64,000 nt of DNA from contig NZ_JASISV010000003.1 in NCBI RefSeq assembly GCF_030063305.1, positions 1 to 64,000 on the forward strand, given 5' to 3'. The notes below the pieces were generated by a model. The model ran no database searches. It was not told the DNA's origin and saw only the letters and a list, made by a program, of their open reading frames with translations. The stretch comes from Salinibacterium sp. G-O1 (GTDB lineage Bacteria; Actinomycetota; Actinomycetes; Actinomycetales; Microbacteriaceae). Position numbers and translations under genes: made by a program. Positions within the stretch are counted from its first letter, which is position 1. Each line of letters starts with the position of its first letter. This document shows, piece after piece, positions 30,089-43,086 of the stretch.

Positions 30089-30919
30089 ATGACTGTTCCC
30101 ACCATCACCCTCAACGACGGCGCCACGATTCCGCAACTCGGTTTCGGTGTTTTCCAGGTCGATCCAGAAGCCACCGAGCGCATCGTGACCGACGCCCTCG
30201 AGGTCGGCTACCGCCACATCGACGCCGCGGCAATCTACGGCAACGAGATCGGCGTGGGCCGCGCGATCGCCGCGTCCGGCATCCCGCGCGACGAGCTCTT
30301 CATCACCACAAAGCTGTGGAACAGCGACCAGGGCACCCAGTCTGCGATCGACGCAATGGACCTCAGCCTCGAAAAGCTTGGCCTCGACTTCGTCGACCTG
30401 TACCTGATCCACTGGCCGCGCGCCGACCTCGACCGCTACCTCGACAGCTGGCAGACCCTCGCCCAGCTCAAGGCAGACGGCAAGACCCGCTCGATCGGCG
30501 TCAGCAACTTCCACCGGGCGCATCTCGACAAGATCATCGCTGGCACGGGTATTGTTCCGGCTGTCGACCAGCTCGAACTCCACCCCGCTTTCGCGCAGCG
30601 CGAGCTTCGCGCATTCGGTGCTGAGGTCGGAATGCACATCCAGGCATGGGGTCCGCTCGGCCAGGGAAAGTACGACCTGTTCAGCGAGCCAGCACTTCAG
30701 GCAGCGGCCGAGGCGCATGGCGTCACACCAGCACAGGTGACCATTCGCTGGCACCTCCAAAACGGCATCATCCTGTTCCCGAAGTCGAACTCCCGCAACC
30801 GCATGGCCGAAAACTTCGACGTCTTCGGCTTCGAGCTGACCGCCGAGCAGATGGCATCCATCGATGCACTCGACCGCGGCCAGCGTGTCGGCTCAAACCC
30901 GGACGAGGCAACCTTCTAA
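30089..30919 (+). CDS. Aldo/keto reductase (AKR5-like)
   Basis: 276-residue NADPH-dependent TIM-barrel reductase. The catalytic tetrad is complete: D45, Y50, K75, H108. The cofactor-binding LFPKSNSRNRMAENFDVF is present near the C-terminus. The size and sequence resemble 2,5-diketo-D-gluconate reductases and methylglyoxal reductases; the substrate is unknown. It is leaderless by promoter spacing and converges on the giant surface-protein gene. Confidence 0.94.
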   Translation: MTVPTITLNDGATIPQLGFGVFQVDPEATERIVTDALEVGYRHIDAAAIYGNEIGVGRAIAASGIPRDELFITTKLWNSDQGTQSAIDAMDLSLEKLGLDFVDLYLIHWPRADLDRYLDSWQTLAQLKADGKTRSIGVSNFHRAHLDKIIAGTGIVPAVDQLELHPAFAQRELRAFGAEVGMHIQAWGPLGQGKYDLFSEPALQAAAEAHGVTPAQVTIRWHLQNGIILFPKSNSRNRMAENFDVFGFELTAEQMASIDALDRGQRVGSNPDEATF

Positions 30920-30930
30920 GTCGACTTGCT

Positions 30931-30954
30931 GTGCTGGCGCCATCGCGCCAGCAC
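30931..30954. terminator. Hairpin between convergent genes
   Basis: GTGCTGGCGC and GCGCCAGCAC form a perfect ten-pair stem with a CATC loop between the aldo/keto reductase and the intended end of the Ig-like gene (30967). There is no clear T-run on either side. Confidence 0.6.
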
Positions 30955-30966
30955 CCGCAGGGCGGT

Positions 30967-33900
30967 CTAGACGCTGCCGCAGTCGGGAACTGTCGCGTAG
31001 CTCCTGCTGGTGTCGGCTGCCCTGATGAAGTATCCGCTGTAATCGCCCATGTTCATCAGGTACCAAACGACACCGTTCTGCGTGCCCCAGCAATAGATGT
31101 ACAGCCCATAGCCGGGGCTGAGGTTCACATTCGAACACGTGGAGTACTGGTACCAGGCGGCACTGTTGACGATGCAGGTCTGAGTAGTGACCGTGCCATT
31201 CGTTGGCGGTGGTGGGGGGGGTGTAAGCCGTGACGGTCGTGCCCCCGGATGTTGTACTCGGCCCGTTCCCGCCGCTGTTTCGTGCAAGAACTGTGATCGA
31301 GTAAGGGCCGCCCGGTCCTACAGTGATCGACGCAGAGGTCGCCGTGGTTGTTCCTGATCGACCATTGCTTGTCGACCACAGGTATTGCAGTCCTTCTCCG
31401 GCCTGGTCGGCAGAGGCGTTGTCTGGCGCATCCCAGGTCCATGTGAGCGTGGTGGAATTCGACGAAACGTTCGGCGGCGTGGAGAGGTTGCGCACAGCAT
31501 TGGGCGTCGGCTGCACGTTGATTGCGACGGCGTTCGACTGAGTTTCTGCGGGGCTCCGCTTGCCGCCAGCGTTTTGCGCATACACACCGATCGTGTAACT
31601 ACCTGCGCTCAGTCCCGAGATCGGCCCGGTACTCAGGCCCGACGTTTGGTTGAATCCGCCGCCGTTGAGGTTCCAGAAGTAGGTTGTCGTGCCGCCCGTC
31701 GCGCCAACGGAATCCCAGCTGCCCTGAATGGTGCCCGGCGCCCAACGGTTCGATTGCGCGAGCGAGACCGGAGTGACGGTCCCGGGGGTGCCATACGGGG
31801 TGATCTGTTCGCTGGCGGCGGAGTAGGCACCGGCGCCGTTGTCGTTGATGGCTCTGACCTGGAATGTGTACGGGGTTCCGTTGGTGAGGCCGTTCACAGT
31901 GCAGGCCTGGCCGGCAGTGCAACCCTCAGTGATCGTGTTCGTTTGTAGATTCTTCACCTGATAGCCGGTGATGGTTTTTCCGTTGGTCGCGGGAGCCGCG
32001 AACTTGATCGTGGCAGATTGATCGCCTCCGACAGCGGAATCCCCGTCACGGTCGGGCTTCTGCACGACATCGGGCACATCGGTGACGGTGAAGGTGATCC
32101 TGCCATTGACGCGGCGGTCCCGGTCTTTCGTGGCATCCTGCACCGTGTAGACGACCTCGATGACCATGTAGTGCGGGGTGGAATTCGGGGTAACCCTGAT
32201 CTGGGTGCCCGTGAAGGTGATGACGCCGACGTTTTCTGCGTTGCTGATCTGCGCATCCACGATCGTCAGTGGCTCGCCGGTGTTCTGATACGGATTGGAG
32301 TCGTTGGTAAGCGGATCCATCACGAAGGTTCCGACTGGGCGTTTGGTTTCGTAACTGTCTGCGACGGCCACGGGAAGCGGCTTGGTCGAACCGACCACAG
32401 TGACATTGATCGTGCCCGGGACCGTGAACTTGTCCCACCGCAGTGTCACGGCGACGGTGTACGTGCTGCCCTTGACGGCGTCTCTGGGGATGCTGAGCGC
32501 TAGCTGGGATCCAGTGAGAGACGCGGTCAATGTCGACGCGGATGTAGAGACACTGGAGTATGTGACCTCCTGCAGAATCTGCGGATTCGGGTGCCCGGTC
32601 GACTGGCGAAGGTCGGTGGTGGACGTCTCGCCGACCTCGACCTGCACGTTTGGGGTGGTGAAGCCCGGTGGGATATCGCGGGACTCAGGGTCGCCGACGA
32701 CGATGGGCAGGGTGACAGTCGCGGCGATTCCCTTGGGGTCGTTCCTGGATTCGCCGTCCGAGACGGTGAAGGTGATCGACGCAGGGCCGCGGTAATCCTC
32801 GGCCGGAGTGAATCTGATCGTGCCATCATCAACAAAGCTGGATTCGCCATTGCTGCGGATCGAGCTCACGCTCGTCGGGGTGTAGATGTGAGCGTCCCGA
32901 CCAGAGGGCACCACGAGAATGTCGGACAGCGCCCACTGCCGTGACTCGTTCATGCTCACATATTGGATCGGCAGATTCGGGTCGAGCATGGGGGGCTCAT
33001 CGAAGTCCTCGTCCACCGCAGCGGGCACGAGGATGAACGCCATTGCGCTCAATTCATCCACGGTATTGGTCACCCGGTACGCGATGGCCTGGCGGGTTTC
33101 GCCCGGGATGACCTCGATCCGGCCGTTGCGCTCGAGCAGTGTCGCGGCCCCGGCGTTGGGGCCATCAATCGATACGACAAGGTCTTCAGTTCTGCCAGCA
33201 GGGTTGAACGCGTAGCCATCGAAGATGTTGACCGTAAATGATTTCTTGCCCGCAATGGATTTTGTGAGGATGGGCACATCATTGGCCGTCGGCGGCAGCA
33301 GTGGCGCATCCGGGGTCACGGTCACGAGCACGTAGCTCATTGTCTTACCGCCGCGGTCATTGGTGAGTTCGTAGCGCAGCGAGAACGATTGCTCGGTTTC
33401 CGGCGCGGTGACCACCAGATACTGTCGGCCGACGACCTCGGCGTCGATGCCCTTTGGCACGTCCACCAGAGTCTTCGAAACCTTGATCGGAGAGCCCTGC
33501 GGGTCGGAGTCGTTGGCCATCAGGTCGACCTGAGCGACGCGCCCCGGCCTGACAGCGACGCTGTCAGGGACCGCGTTCGGCGGCTGCAACTGGCTGGGCT
33601 GCGGGATGACAGCAATTCTGATGCTCGCGTCACCCGTTGCACCGAAGGTGTCATACACGCGGTAGCTGAACTCGTCGGTGCCAGCGGCCGCCTCGGAAGA
33701 GTCGTAGATGAAGTAATCGTTGCCGACCTCCACCACAGAGCCCAGCGTTGGATTCTGCGGAAAGTTCAGAAGCTGCGCGGAATCCCCATCCGGGTCAATG
33801 CCGTTCAGTGGAACGTCGACGCGGATAGACCCGCCGGCGAGCACGCGCCCCACCAGCGGATCGGGTATGGGATCGCGGTTGCCGTCGGTGCTCAGGGGGG

Positions 33901-36523
33901 TGACAATGAACACCGCGGTCGCTGCAGCCATCTCGCCGAACGGGTCGAGCACCCGGTAGTCGACGCGGTACTCGCCGGCCACAGCCGGCGCCTGGAACCG
34001 CAGCAGGTTGTTCGAGACGAAGGCGATTCCTGCCGTGGGTGCGGTGATCAGGTTTGTGTCGAGGAACATGCTCGAGTCATCTGGATGGAAGTCGTTGGCC
34101 AGCACATCCAACGTGATGATGTCTCCGACCCGCACGGTGGCCGCATCATCGGCCGCGACCGGCGGCTGGTGTTTCGTCAACGCCGGCACCGGTACCACGG
34201 TCACTCCGGCGGTCGCCGTCGAGATGCCGTCCGAGATTGTGTAGCTGAAGTTGACCTGCTCCGTCATCGCCGATGTCGCGGTCACCCGCACAAGCGTCGA
34301 CTCGAGAAGTTCGACGACGAGCCCCTTCGCCTTCACATCCGCGGGAACAGTCACCGACTGCACGGCCAGAATCTTCCCTGTGGGGCTGACATCGTTTGAG
34401 AGCACAGAGACCGTGATGGGCTCTTCCCCACGCAGGTACGCGGTATCTTTCACGGCAATCGGCGGAACATTGTCATCCGCGGGCTTGTCTTTGACATCGA
34501 TGCGAATGATGCCCACACTCGTGTTTGCGCCAGCCTGCAGCGTGTACTTCAGGTAGAAGATGCCCGGGTTCGACGACGAGAACGTCACCTGTCGGCGATC
34601 GGAGTTGAAGGATGCCACGGCCCCACCGCTCGTTTCATCCATGCCGATCAGGCTCAACTGCGCCCCCGACGGTGACAGGTCGTTCCTCAACGGCTCGATG
34701 ACCGTTGTCTCCCCCACGAAAGCGCTGGCGAAGTCAGGCGTTCCGATCGGGTTGAGGGTACCGGAAGGCTCGACGACGACCGTGAGAGTTCCCGTCACGG
34801 GTGAGCCGCGGCCATCGCTGACCTGGAACTGCACCTCCTTCTGTCCCAGCTCCGAGGTCTGGTGGGTGAATGTGATGAAACCGTCGGGGGTGAATCTCAC
34901 AAGGTCGCCCGATTTCGGGCTAGCGCCGATGAGATAGAGGTCGTCCCCGTCGGGATCGCGCCAATCTGACAGCACGTTGTAGGAGATCGTCTGGTTGGCT
35001 TCGACCGCGACCCCCGGGAGTCGAACCGGGTACGGCGCCTCATTGATCTCGTCGGGCACCACTCGAGCAGTGACATGTGCTGAGTCCGTGCCGCCACGGC
35101 CGTCATCCACCGTGTAGTTGAACGAGATGCTGCCCACGAAGCCCTCGACCGGAGTGAACTGCAAGGCCCTGCTGCCATCGATCGGGTCGAGCCTGCCGGT
35201 CGTCTCCGCGATCGCGTCATACGACGAGATCACCAGCACGTCACCATCGGGGTCGGAGTCGTTGTCCAGCACCGAAAGAATAGTGGTGCGTCCGGGCCGT
35301 ACCCCGAACTCGTCGTCTTTCGCGGTCGGTGGCCGGTTCGTATCGGTGCGCTCGGCGAGGGTGTCTTCGAACGACTGGATCGCCGACTTCTCTTCGCCGA
35401 TCTCCTCAGATTCCTGCTCCACCGGTGGCGTCACATCATCCCAGTTGTTGACCAGCCGCATGTTCTCACTCGGCAACCACACATTGCCATTCGTCAAGTC
35501 GTTCAATGCGATCACCGACCGATTGACCCGAAACTCCAGCACCCCCGCTTGTGTCGGCTCCGCAATGGCAAGGGTCACGACATCCTGGCCCTCGCACGAC
35601 AGCAGGTACGTTTGGTCCGCGCCCCACGCACCGTGGGCGCAACCATCTTGATTCACCGGGGCCGCGATACCACTCACATCGCTGTTGTTGCTCGTGAAGC
35701 CGGCACCCATCGTCTCGACTGAACCTGAGCCCAGATCTACCCGAACCAGGGAGTCTGCTGTTGCAAGCACAGCGAAACCCGATGTGGGACCCGTCTGCTG
35801 CAGAGCCAATCCGGGCGCGTCACCGATGCCGTACCGCTGCCCGCCCTCAGTGACGATCTCATTCGTCGACTGGTCGAACACCACAGGGGCATCGCCGACC
35901 GCAGCGAGCTGGAACTCTCCGACACCCGGAAAATCTGTGGCGAGCGGTGCGGCGTCGAGAGTCGCGATCCGAAACAACGTCTTCGTCTCGGGCGACACCG
36001 CCAGGATCACGCCGTCGGGGGACACCGCAACGTGCGCGCCCTCGCCCAACTCCGCTATCGGAGCGTCGGAGACATAGTTGAACTGCAGGTCGCCCACCGA
36101 CGGGATGCCCCACAGCTTCCCGTCAGCTGCCAGGATCGCGATAACACTGCCGCCATACGCAACCTCGGCGCCGATCGGCACATCCACTGACGACGTCACC
36201 TCGGTTGACGCCGGATTCACCGACTCGACCCGACCCGCATCCGGGTCATGCATGAACAGGGTGTCGCCATCCTGCATCACATCGAAATTCGCGCTCGACG
36301 CCACCACAGAGCCGTTCAGCTCATCGATCTGACGATTCAGCCGTCCGCCCAGGAGTTTCTGGCCGTTGGTCACCCACACATCTCGTGACGTCAGTTTCAC
36401 ATCAGAAACCGGGAACCCGGGATGCAGCGCCGCGATCGTCAGGGGCACGCCAACGACGAGCGCGACCACCAGTACGGATGCGGTCGATTTGCGGGCGGCG
36501 ACCCACCGGGTGAGAGCGCTCAC
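30967..36523 (-). CDS. Giant Ig-like/FN3 surface protein, frameshifted at a C8 tract
   Basis: One N-terminal membrane helix (15-33) precedes a WD-like region, then about nine cadherin/Ig-like modules marked by motifs such as VLDNDSDPDGD, VLSNDVSP and LMANDSDPQG, and three fibronectin-III-like domains. As written, the reading frame leaves the true frame at a run of eight C (minus strand) at 31214-31221 and would end at 30893 inside the antisense of the neighbouring gene. Removing one C gives an exact 1851-codon frame ending at 30967 with a Cys-containing tail (TQTCIV, STCSN, YCWG, PDCGS). GTG at 36523 is chosen because GGGGAG lies six bases upstream. Probably a wall-spanning adhesin or scaffold. 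Confidence 0.8.
31214..31221 (-). repeat. C8 homopolymer causing frameshift
   Basis: Eight consecutive G on the plus strand (C on the coding strand) in a Pro-rich linker. Seven (or ten) would keep the surface-protein gene in frame; eight does not. It is either a slipped-strand contingency site or a sequencing or assembly error. Confidence 0.85.
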
Positions 36524-36587
36524 GGAACTCTCCCCATCATTGCCCGCCACGGTCAGTTACCGCGAAGCAGCGGGGGCGCAACGCCTC

Positions 36588-36663: not shown

Positions 36664-37413
36664 CTACAGCGTGACGGTTTCGCCGCGCGGGGTTGCGACC
36701 AGCAACCCCGTGTGGGCGAACGCCACTTCGAGTTGGGTCCGGGATTCGGAGAAGTGATTCCAGTCTTCGGTGTGAACTCCGACGACGGTGGTGGCCGCGA
36801 GGATCGCGGCGGCGCGAGCCGCATCCTGCGAGGTCAACGTCAGCGCAGCGTCGATGCCGGGCACGCGGGCGGCGCCGGCGAAGAGCACGGCGATCGCGAC
36901 ATCCGGAAACCGCCCGGCGATCTGCTCGACCAGCGGAAGCGAGGCGTTGTCGCCGCTGATGTAGACGGTCGGCTCGCCTTCGGCCTCCAGCACGAAACCC
37001 GTGACGTGGCCGACGAGCCGCTCGCTGCCGGGAGGGCCGTGCAGCGCCGGAACCGCGGTGATCGTGACATCGCCCGTCTCCCAGGACTCCCAGGAGTCGA
37101 GGCCGACGACCGATCCGCCGAACAGGTCGCCCGCAGCCTCCCGCGTGCTGAGGGTGGGGATGCCCGTGGCGATGAGCTCGAGGCCCTCGTAGTCGAGGTT
37201 GTCTTTGTGGCCGTGGTGGCTCAGCAGCACGACGTCAATCATGCCGATCTCGGAGCGTTCGATGGCCGGTCCCGCCGTCTTGACGAGGGTGGTTTCGCCC
37301 GGCGCCTCATAGGACTGGGGAGCATCGAAGGTGGGATCGGTGATGAACCGTTTGCCGGCGTACCCGAGGATGCCGGTGGGGCCACCAAGGTACGTGAAGC
37401 TCGTCGACGACAT
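36664..37413 (-). CDS. Metallo-beta-lactamase-fold hydrolase (UlaG-like)
   Basis: 249 residues. The metal motif SHHGHKDNLD is followed by HGPPGSE, YISGDNAS and the C-terminal VGVHTEDWNHF, the pattern of UlaG/YhfI-like MBL-fold hydrolases. Substrate unknown. Its ATG is only 11 bases from the ATG of the divergent DUF255 gene. A TAGTCT box lies exactly six bases upstream and overlaps the other gene's start codon, so the mRNA should be leaderless. Confidence 0.88.
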   Translation of the reverse strand: MSSTSFTYLGGPTGILGYAGKRFITDPTFDAPQSYEAPGETTLVKTAGPAIERSEIGMIDVVLLSHHGHKDNLDYEGLELIATGIPTLSTREAAGDLFGGSVVGLDSWESWETGDVTITAVPALHGPPGSERLVGHVTGFVLEAEGEPTVYISGDNASLPLVEQIAGRFPDVAIAVLFAGAARVPGIDAALTLTSQDAARAAAILAATTVVGVHTEDWNHFSESRTQLEVAFAHTGLLVATPRGETVTL

Positions 37414-37427
37414 AATCTGAGACTATG
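37411..37427. promoter_or_regulatory. Shared 17 bp divergent leaderless promoter
   Basis: The 17 bases CATAATCTGAGACTATG contain both start codons and both -10 boxes. TAATCT (37413-37418) serves the plus gene and TAGTCT (37420-37425, minus) the other, each exactly six bases from its ATG. Each -10 box includes one base of the opposite start codon. The whole element is a quasi-palindrome. Confidence 0.8.
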
Positions 37428-39239
37428 CCCAACGCATTGATGGATGCTGTAAGCCCGTACCTCAGATCGCACGCCGACAACCCCGTCGACTGGTGGCAGT
37501 GGGGGCCGGAGCCCTTCGCCGAGGCCGCCAGACGTGACGTCCCCGTGCTTGTTTCGATCGGGTATTCGACCTGCCACTGGTGTCACGTGATGGCCCGCGA
37601 AAGCTTCAGTGATCCTGCGATCGCTGCGATCATGAACGAGGGATTCGTCGCGATCAAGGTCGACCGCGAGGAGCACGCCGAGGTCGACTCCACCTACATG
37701 GCGGCGGCGGCCGCCTTCACCGGCAACCTCGGCTGGCCGCTCAACGTTTTTGTGACGCCGCAGGGCAGGGCCTTCTTCGCGGGAACATACTGGCCGCCCG
37801 AACCCGTGCAGGGGCATCCATCGTTCAGGGTGGTACTTGACGCGGTCGCCGATGCCTGGCGCGACCGGCGTGCCGAGGTCGAGCAGAACGGCGCCGCGAT
37901 AGTGGATGCCCTGTCCGCCGCTCCCGGCGGCGGCGGCGCGCTCGTGGTCGACTTCGAGCCGATCGTCGCCGAGCTCGCGGGTTACGAAGACGCCGAGCTG
38001 GGCGGCTTCGGGGGAGCGCCGAAATTCCCAGTGGCGCCGGTGCAGCGCTTCCTGCTGGAGCGGGCGTCGGTGGGGGATGACGTCGCCGCCGCGCTCGCCG
38101 GCCGCACGCTTCACGCCACTCTCGGCTTGCGCGACCGCGTGGACGGCGGATTCTTCCGCTACGCGACGATGCGCGACTGGAGCGATCCGCACTACGAGCG
38201 CATGCTCTACGACAACGCCCAACTACTCTCGGCATACGCGCTGGCGGGCGATCGCGATGTTGCAGAAGGAATCGCCGAGTGGATCACCTCGATGCAGCAG
38301 CCCGGCGGCGGCTTTGCGACGGCGCAAGACAGCGAGAGCACGGTCGACGGCGCACGGGTCGAGGGCTTCTACTATTCATTGGATGCGGCCAGCCGCTCGC
38401 GGGTGGAGGCCCCACCCGTCGACACGAAGATCCTCACCGGGTGGAACGGTCTCGCCATCGAGGGGCTCGCGCTCGCCGGGCGCACGCTCGACCGACCCGA
38501 GTGGATCGCAACTGCCAGCGCCGCCGCCGACTTCCTGCTGGAACGCCATGTGGGCGACCGGCTCATCCGCGCCTCGATCGGTGACGCGATTTCGAGTGCC
38601 AGAGCCACCCTCGAAGACGTCGGGATGCTTGCCTCCGGTCTCATCGAGCTCGCGGTCGCCTCCGGGGAGGTGCGGTACGCGGTGGCGGCCCGCGAGCTCA
38701 TCGATGACTCACTCGCCGCCGGGTCCGGCGGTTTTGGCGTGCCCGGCGGGGCCGACCCGGTACTCGAGTCGCAGGGGCTCGCGGTGCGGCCAGACCCGAG
38801 CGACGGCGCACATCCGTCGGGACTGAGCGCCGTGGCATCCGCCGCCTATCGGCTGTTTTTGCTGACCGCCCACGAACCGTACCGGGCCGCGGCGAGTGGC
38901 GCGATGGCCGGGGTTGCCGAGGCCGCGGCGCGCCAGCCGATCTCGCTCGGCGCCGCGCTCACCGTGATGTCTGCGCTGTCTGAACCAGCTCGCCAGGTCG
39001 TCGTCGTCGGCGACGATGCGCAGGATGCCGCGGCCACCCTCGCGCGGCACTGGCACCGCTCCGGCAGCATCTCGGTAGCGCTGACGCGGGCGCAGGCCGC
39101 GGACTGGGCAGCCGCCGGGTTCGAGTTGCTGCAGGGCCGCGCGGGCACGGCGGGGGACACCACGGCCTGGGTGTGTGCCGACTTCGTGTGCAGGCTGCCG
39201 ACCACGGACGCGGCCGAGCTCGCGGTGCAGCTGGCTTAA
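37425..39239 (+). CDS. DUF255 / YyaL-type thioredoxin-domain protein
   Basis: 604 residues. The N-terminal thioredoxin-like domain has the family signature [10 protein letters not shown] (C50, C53). A long alpha/alpha-toroid, six-hairpin-glycosidase-like region follows ([33 protein letters not shown]). Homologues are YyaL and human SPATA20; the biochemical function is not established, with redox or N-acylglucosamine 2-epimerase-like roles proposed. It is slightly shorter than most homologues (about 650-700). Leaderless, divergent from the MBL-fold gene. Confidence 0.92.
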
Positions 39240-42663: not shown

Positions 42664-43086
42664 TCAGTTGCCGGCCATCGACCCTGTCATGGAGTCCATC
42701 ATCTTCTGGCAGGCCATCGCGCACTGACGGCAGGCCTCCGCGCACATGCGGCAATCGTCGCTCATGTCCGCGTGGGTCATGCACTCCTCGGCACACGCAC
42801 CGCACATCGTGATCGTCGCCTGGAGCATGGCCATCATGCTCTCCTTGTGCATGCCGTTCGGGCGCATCATCATGCGCATCATCATGTTGGTCATGTCGGC
42901 GGTGTTGGCGCAGCGGCCCATGCAGGTGGCCATGCCCTCGCCGGTCATCGCGTTCGAGCACATCGTGCACGCCTGCTCGCAGGCCGAACACGCCTCCATG
43001 CACTCCTGCATCATCGCCATGTCCATGCCCATCGACGACATGTCTTTTTCGTGCATCTGCATCATCTGCATCGCTGAGTTCATCAT
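42664..43086 (-). CDS. Met/Cys-rich four-helix copper-binding protein (Csp/DUF326-like)
   Basis: 140 residues with 15 Cys and about 37 Met. Repeated CxxxC and CxxC spacings in helices (ECMEACSACEQACTMC; DDCRMCAEACRQCAMAC) match the DUF326/copper-storage-protein four-helix bundle, which binds many Cu(I) ions in its core. No signal peptide is seen, so it is cytosolic. The central segment (TNMMMRMMMRPNGM) is an unusual extra Met cluster. GGAG lies eight bases before the first ATG. A long GC-rich hairpin sits in the leader. Confidence 0.87.
   Translation of the reverse strand: MMNSAMQMMQMHEKDMSSMGMDMAMMQECMEACSACEQACTMCSNAMTGEGMATCMGRCANTADMTNMMMRMMMRPNGMHKESMMAMLQATITMCGACAEECMTHADMSDDCRMCAEACRQCAMACQKMMDSMTGSMAGN

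Follow-up and report, generated by a model that had tools for sequence, protein, structure and literature searches.

In Escherichia coli, divergent transcription starts most often lie 18 bp apart, distances of 10 and 23 bp being also common, and polymerases cannot bind bidirectional promoters in both directions simultaneously, as described in the accessible part of PMC12825309. The same portion of that work reports that the basal activity of all five bidirectional promoters tested (5/5) did not suffice for competition, and that when one side is activated, the other tends to be repressed (PMC12825309). Leaderless genes of bacteria have a TANNNT motif some 12 bp ahead of the start, and for Actinobacteria a TAnnnT pattern is described, according to the excerpted text of PMC3160421, and the start maps of Mycobacterium tuberculosis carry no -35 motif in the available sections of PMC3898074. 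The interlocked layout described here would bring leaderless translation together with bidirectional promoters at a single site.

The site lies between two divergent genes in a window of 64,000 nucleotides, which is the whole stretch of DNA analysed. One gene, on the minus strand at 36664..37413, encodes an MBL-fold hydrolase of 249 aa (PF12706, E 7e-14, and PF13483; for PRK00685 the score of 32 bits did not reach the cut-off of 144), and the other, on the plus strand at 37425..39239, encodes a DUF255/Thioredox_DsbH protein of 604 aa (PF03190, E 3e-66); judged by Pfam, both genes are real. The minus-strand ATG of the MBL gene reads as CAT at 37411-37413, the DUF255 gene starts with the ATG at 37425-37427, and the 11 bases separating the two start codons are AATCTGAGACT. 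The 17-bp interlocked start region as a whole, CATAATCTGAGACTATG (37411..37427, assigned to no strand), was recognised by direct reading and pattern scans and is kept in relatives. Within it, the -10 box of the DUF255 gene, TAATCT, occupies 37413..37418 on the plus strand, its first T being the T of the opposite CAT, while that of the MBL gene, TAGTCT, occupies 37420..37425 on the minus strand, its first base pairing with the initial A of the DUF255 start codon. Six bases lie between each box and its own ATG, and each box overlaps the opposite start codon by exactly one base (37413 and 37425); both genes have, some 12 bp ahead of the start codon, the TANNNT that characterises leaderless genes. 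The sequence-only reading had described this arrangement (start codons 11 bases apart, -10 boxes at leaderless spacing, one-base overlaps) exactly.

From the TANNNT-N6-ATG arrangement, leaderless transcription of the DUF255 gene is predicted to start at 37425 (plus strand), the A of its ATG, and that of the MBL gene probably starts likewise at the A of its ATG, 37413 (minus strand). The predicted starts are 12 bp apart, which is none of the common optima of 18, 10 and 23 bp; in the available part of PMC12825309, these optima are typical values from which small variations are allowed. As in bidirectional promoters, two opposed -10 elements (37413-37418, plus; 37420-37425, minus) lie so close that occupation of one would be expected to exclude the other. 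The layout of the boxes confirms the extreme compactness claimed earlier for the predicted divergent promoter, and their overlapping placement lends inferential support to the accompanying claim that polymerases for the two genes must exclude each other. Elsewhere in the window, a giant Ig/cadherin/fn3 repeat protein is encoded at 30893-36550 (minus strand), whose final hundred or so residues look unlike the remainder, as though another frame was read, and a 140-aa Met- and Cys-rich protein encoded at 42664-43086 (minus strand) resembles copper storage proteins of the Csp1 kind, with a score of 31 bits that falls short of the cut-off of 100.

The pattern CATANNNTNANNNTATG occurs once in the window, compared with a mean of 0.00 in shuffled sequences (n=100). 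Its one-sided form, TANNNTN6ATG, has 12 matches on both strands of the window versus 3.38 expected, a number reached in 0 of 100 shuffles, and this excess suggests that leaderless starts are common in the genome. The whole genome contains three matches of CATANNNTNANNNTATG, with none in the reversed control: this site; L081, flanked by genes for a chorismate enzyme (pabB-like) and a class IV aminotransferase (pabC-like); and a third site, L082. Two of the three lie between two coding frames, L082 being coding-like on one side only by GC content at codon positions. A relaxed pattern, with GTG allowed and spacings of 10-12, gave 5 matches versus 4 in the control, and therefore only the ATG form stands out in this genome; neither of the two additional matches, both GTG variants, is flanked on both sides by long frames.

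Among 27 genomes of the genus, we found 54 matches versus 1 in the reversed control (match totals for genus, family, order and class, like those for spacing 17 below, were summed by hand from tables). The conservation of the 17 bp in related genomes, proposed with the sequence-only reading as a check, was borne out: the CATANNCTGAGACTATG form is present on one strand in 17 of the 27 genomes, and the CATANNCTAAGNCTATG form in 23 of the 27, both counted by eye. Of 42 genus loci read, codon bias marked both flanks as coding-like in 33, one flank in 8 and neither in 1. At the family level (150 genomes, which we take to be Microbacteriaceae), 90 matches versus 17 in the control were distributed over 67 genomes and 44 of 85 genera. 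By the same rule, 41 of the 74 family loci read among these 90 matches were two-sided, 20 one-sided and 13 neither; with 33 of 74 not two-sided, the family count consists partly of chance or one-sided sites. At the order level, 198 genomes were scanned, 14 of the 198 being from the family (the genome under study included), and 41 had a spacing-11 match, giving 57 matches versus 19 in the control, and the 28 loci read from other families (L137-L164) were two-sided in 3 cases, one-sided in 15 and neither in 10 by codon bias. In the class, 41 of 148 genomes had a match at spacing 11 or 12 (58 matches versus 27), and 3 of 28 loci read were two-sided, one of these being a map pair of the own family. 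The pattern exceeds its control beyond the family, yet mostly in one-sided form, and among the loci read, the four conserved gene pairs described below were found in the own family only.

The 153 sites of spacing 11, which include repeats, closely related genomes and order loci, comprised pabB/pabC (54), MBL/DUF255 (25), tadA/upp (2) and DUF255/PPK2 kinase (1), the other 71 having no reference protein on either side. Counted as distinct sites over spacings 11 and 12, with near-identical species counted separately, there were 96 in total: pabB/pabC 60, MBL/DUF255 21, map/small protein 11 and tadA/upp 4. Here, pabB and pabC are to be read as 'pabB-like' and 'pabC-like', as these are the best NCBIfam matches with scores under the curated cut-offs, for pabC far under. 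In the single PPK2 case (L127, genome G079, 1501-1517), the partner interlocked with the DUF255 gene at spacing 11 is not an MBL gene but one for a polyphosphate kinase; the layout at the DUF255 gene may have had more than one origin. The map genes (type I methionine aminopeptidase) stand head to head with a gene whose product, some 58-70 aa long, carries a conserved WYN..TG.VE motif (L288 1216-1425, L289-L293, L296, L298, L310, L165 and L235); the L288 copy, searched as one representative, had no Pfam or NCBIfam match.

The pabC-like gene was surveyed at the 30 best-scoring loci of 72 matching genomes among 90, a sample of 28 genera biased to near relatives. Of these best 30, spacing was 11 at 20 loci and 12 at 3, and 6 loci were wider or without a two-sided leaderless pair. 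At one locus (L265, genome G114, around 1452-1482) the boxes are still interlocked, but the first ATG there begins a frame of five codons, which overlaps the pabC-like start as ATGA; this could possibly be a leaderless upstream frame with translational coupling. Around the DUF255 gene, an MBL relative lies upstream on the opposite strand in 15 of 28 near homologues (L001-L028), and in none of the remaining 52 of the 80 loci searched (L001-L080; L006 and L007 have fewer than 500 bases upstream). The MBL/DUF255 spacing is 11 in 8 near homologues, and otherwise 22, 23, 35, 57, 72 or 82, with more than 1 kb in L003; some of these values were read by eye, those of L008 and L015 from the printed sequence with GTG starts. 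In L008 and L015, the two -10 boxes have a TA in common, and their starts are predicted to be 24 and 23 bp apart, similar to the 23-bp distance reported for E. coli bidirectional promoters. TANNNT is present at -12 to -7 of the DUF255 gene in 19 of the 28 near homologues, including 11 of the 20 without an 11-base site. A long spacer at homologous loci, together with missing -10 boxes, had been named beforehand as grounds for abandoning the divergent-promoter idea; this applies only by half, as longer spacers do exist but 11 of these 20 non-compact homologues keep TANNNT.

To compare spacings, the middle of the pattern was varied as N{0,4} in 80 family genomes, which keeps ten fixed bases at every spacing. 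The scan gave 113 matches versus 57 in a control pooled over the five spacings. Among the 75 of 113 matches listed, spacing was 11 in 31, 12 in 32, 10 in 4, 13 in 2 and 14 in 6; a predicted start-site distance of 12-13 bp dominates among these listed matches. At spacing 12 the interlock is unchanged except that seven bases lie between the -10 box and the ATG; this spacing is seen at map/small protein, tadA/upp, pabB/pabC and, in other genera, MBL/DUF255. A spacing of 12 with non-overlapping boxes, CATTANNNTANNNTAATG, was also tried and rejected, with 0 matches in 150 family genomes and 0 in the control, fewer being expected from its two extra fixed bases. The 18-bp layout of E. coli, in which one -10 element (TANNNTA) is shared at spacing 17 and starts would be 18 bp apart, had 52 matches versus 16 in the control (150 family genomes), and 12 of 30 such loci were two-sided by codon bias; from this excess and the two-sided loci, the shared -10 layout is used in the family too. 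The two-sided loci (L166, L169, L171, L173-L176, L187, L189, L191, L192 and L194) include some repeated in related genomes.

We consider that the site is quite probably a compact housekeeping promoter of the bidirectional kind, serving two leaderless genes, the transcription starts, leaderless translation, mutual exclusion and co-expression all being deduced from sequence. Sigma-A reads T-12, A-11 and T-7 of a promoter. The housekeeping sigma factor would recognise TANNNT on either strand, RNA would have the A of the ATG as its first base, with ribosomes initiating on the 5'-terminal AUG; translation of this kind makes a leader and a Shine-Dalgarno sequence unnecessary. The self-complementary TA would be used twice, positions -12/-11 of one promoter being -1/+1 of the other on the opposite strand, so that the +1A of each gene would pair with the -12T of the other, and the -1T of one gene with the -11A of the other. 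Judging from this geometry, both open complexes would melt almost identical DNA, and the two starts could hardly approach closer, at this -10-to-ATG distance, without damage to a -10 box. With one polymerase at a time on the site and low firing, both genes would be weak and loosely co-expressed instead of forming a toggle, and interference between the polymerases would be at most mild. The earlier suggestion that -35 contacts fall inside the opposite coding region became moot, as no TTGACA-like signal is seen at the usual spacings: over 192 promoter sides, at least 4 of 6 matches to TTGACA occurred in 0-6% at spacers of 15-20 versus 0-12% at other offsets, and -35 elements inside the opposite gene were rejected on these grounds. 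This absence is in line with the M. tuberculosis start maps, as far as the accessible part of PMC3898074 goes.

The sequence-only reading had suggested a built-in either/or switch, in which a polymerase on one gene silences the other and yields two expression states. Simultaneous binding does appear implausible from the overlapping placement of the two -10 boxes, and in E. coli strong activation one way tends to repress the other, as the available portion of PMC12825309 states. A switch would nevertheless require that one side be strong or activated, and no -35 signal capable of making one side strong turned up. The same geometry recurs at the pabB/pabC-like, tadA/upp and map pairs, whose members are expected to be needed together. 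The commonest user, pabB/pabC-like, pairs what we presume to be enzymes of successive steps of p-aminobenzoate synthesis, for which either/or expression would make little sense. The MBL/DUF255 pair itself is also found at spacings of 22-82 bases, and exclusivity is thus not evidently under selection. Taken with the tested basal promoters of E. coli, which are weak and showed no appreciable competition in the part of PMC12825309 available, the housekeeping pairs and the wider-spaced homologues leave the proposed MBL-versus-DUF255 switch unsupported, and we regard it as unlikely.

Alternatively, the real promoters of one or both genes might lie deeper in the opposite gene and produce leaders, the -10-like boxes being incidental. 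This would suit the 9 of 28 near DUF255 homologues with no exact TANNNT at positions -12 to -7 (in 4 of these 9 the first aligned codon is not ATG), but it sits poorly with the leaderless geometry, which is itself conserved and spacing-preferred, and 11 bases are too short for a leader unless transcription begins within the neighbour; we judge it very unlikely.

The palindrome also admits an explanation from the promoter geometry. The arms of the 17-bp region are complementary at 7 of 8 positions around the centre at 37419, with one mismatch (37415/37423). Two TANNNT-N6-ATG units placed head to head at 11 bases force 10 of the 17 bases into a perfect palindrome and leave three pairs free; because this geometry forces CATANNNTNANNNTATG, the palindrome is a by-product. 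The free pairs were complementary in 27 of 78 cases at 26 distinct pabB/pabC sites (24.4 by shuffling) and in 14 of 36 cases at 12 distinct MBL/DUF255 sites (15.2 by shuffling), and dyad symmetry beyond the promoter and start-codon bases, as a dimeric operator would show, is thus at chance level in these two sets of sites. No binding protein is needed to account for the dyad, and the idea that a dimeric regulator uses the palindrome as its operator, suggested by the 17-bp quasi-dyad and by the CT.AG around the centre common to many genus sites, was rejected as highly improbable on this chance-level symmetry, as the free positions moreover differ between unrelated gene pairs and the nearly equal use of spacings 11 and 12 in the family list would shift the half-sites apart.

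Overall, the compact bidirectional housekeeping promoter remains our preferred explanation. A bolder proposal, which we advance tentatively and hold to be rather doubtful, is that Microbacteriaceae possess a distinct minimal class of divergent promoter, CATANNNTN(1-2)ANNNTATG, in which one stretch of DNA would be both promoter and start codon and would enforce alternating, low-noise firing of functionally paired genes; the same pairs would be retained, as drift of either gene would destroy the other's -10 box, which would lock gene order. The compact promoter predicts pairs of start sites 12-13 bp apart at conserved Microbacteriaceae gene pairs. With its two start codons counted in, this two-way promoter measures 17-18 bp; it is minimal, conserved and simple to edit, and through it one may ask whether polymerase exclusion couples, alternates or merely limits two housekeeping genes.

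In the titles and abstract openings of the papers listed on leaderless genes and divergent or bidirectional promoters, drawn from literature with few subscription journals, no description of the interlocked layout was found. It is best read as a family-wide variation on the bidirectional promoters described for E. coli, as far as the sequence comparisons indicate. Like the promoters of Warman and Grainger in E. coli and Salmonella, which in the accessible text have opposed -10 elements, starts within 7-25 bp, steric exclusion and often mRNAs as products (PMC12825309, PMC10268837), the site combines these features, here as predictions. In those promoters, the starts are mostly 18 bp apart around or within a shared -10 element, according to the same portion of PMC12825309, whereas here a distance of 12 or 13 bp is predicted, the -10 boxes stand side by side, and each is fused to the start codon of the opposite, apparently leaderless gene. 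Among leaderless genes, the adjacent and divergent PrpD (Rv1130) and Rv1129c of M. tuberculosis, which go up in starvation, are both leaderless in the available part of PMC3898074, as is predicted for the pair studied here. The two genes share with leaderless genes of Actinobacteria, as these appear in the parts available of PMC3160421 and PMC3898074, the TANNNT some 12 bp ahead of the start codon and the lack of a detectable -35 motif; unlike those single-gene signals, two of them are interlocked here and conserved as a pair.
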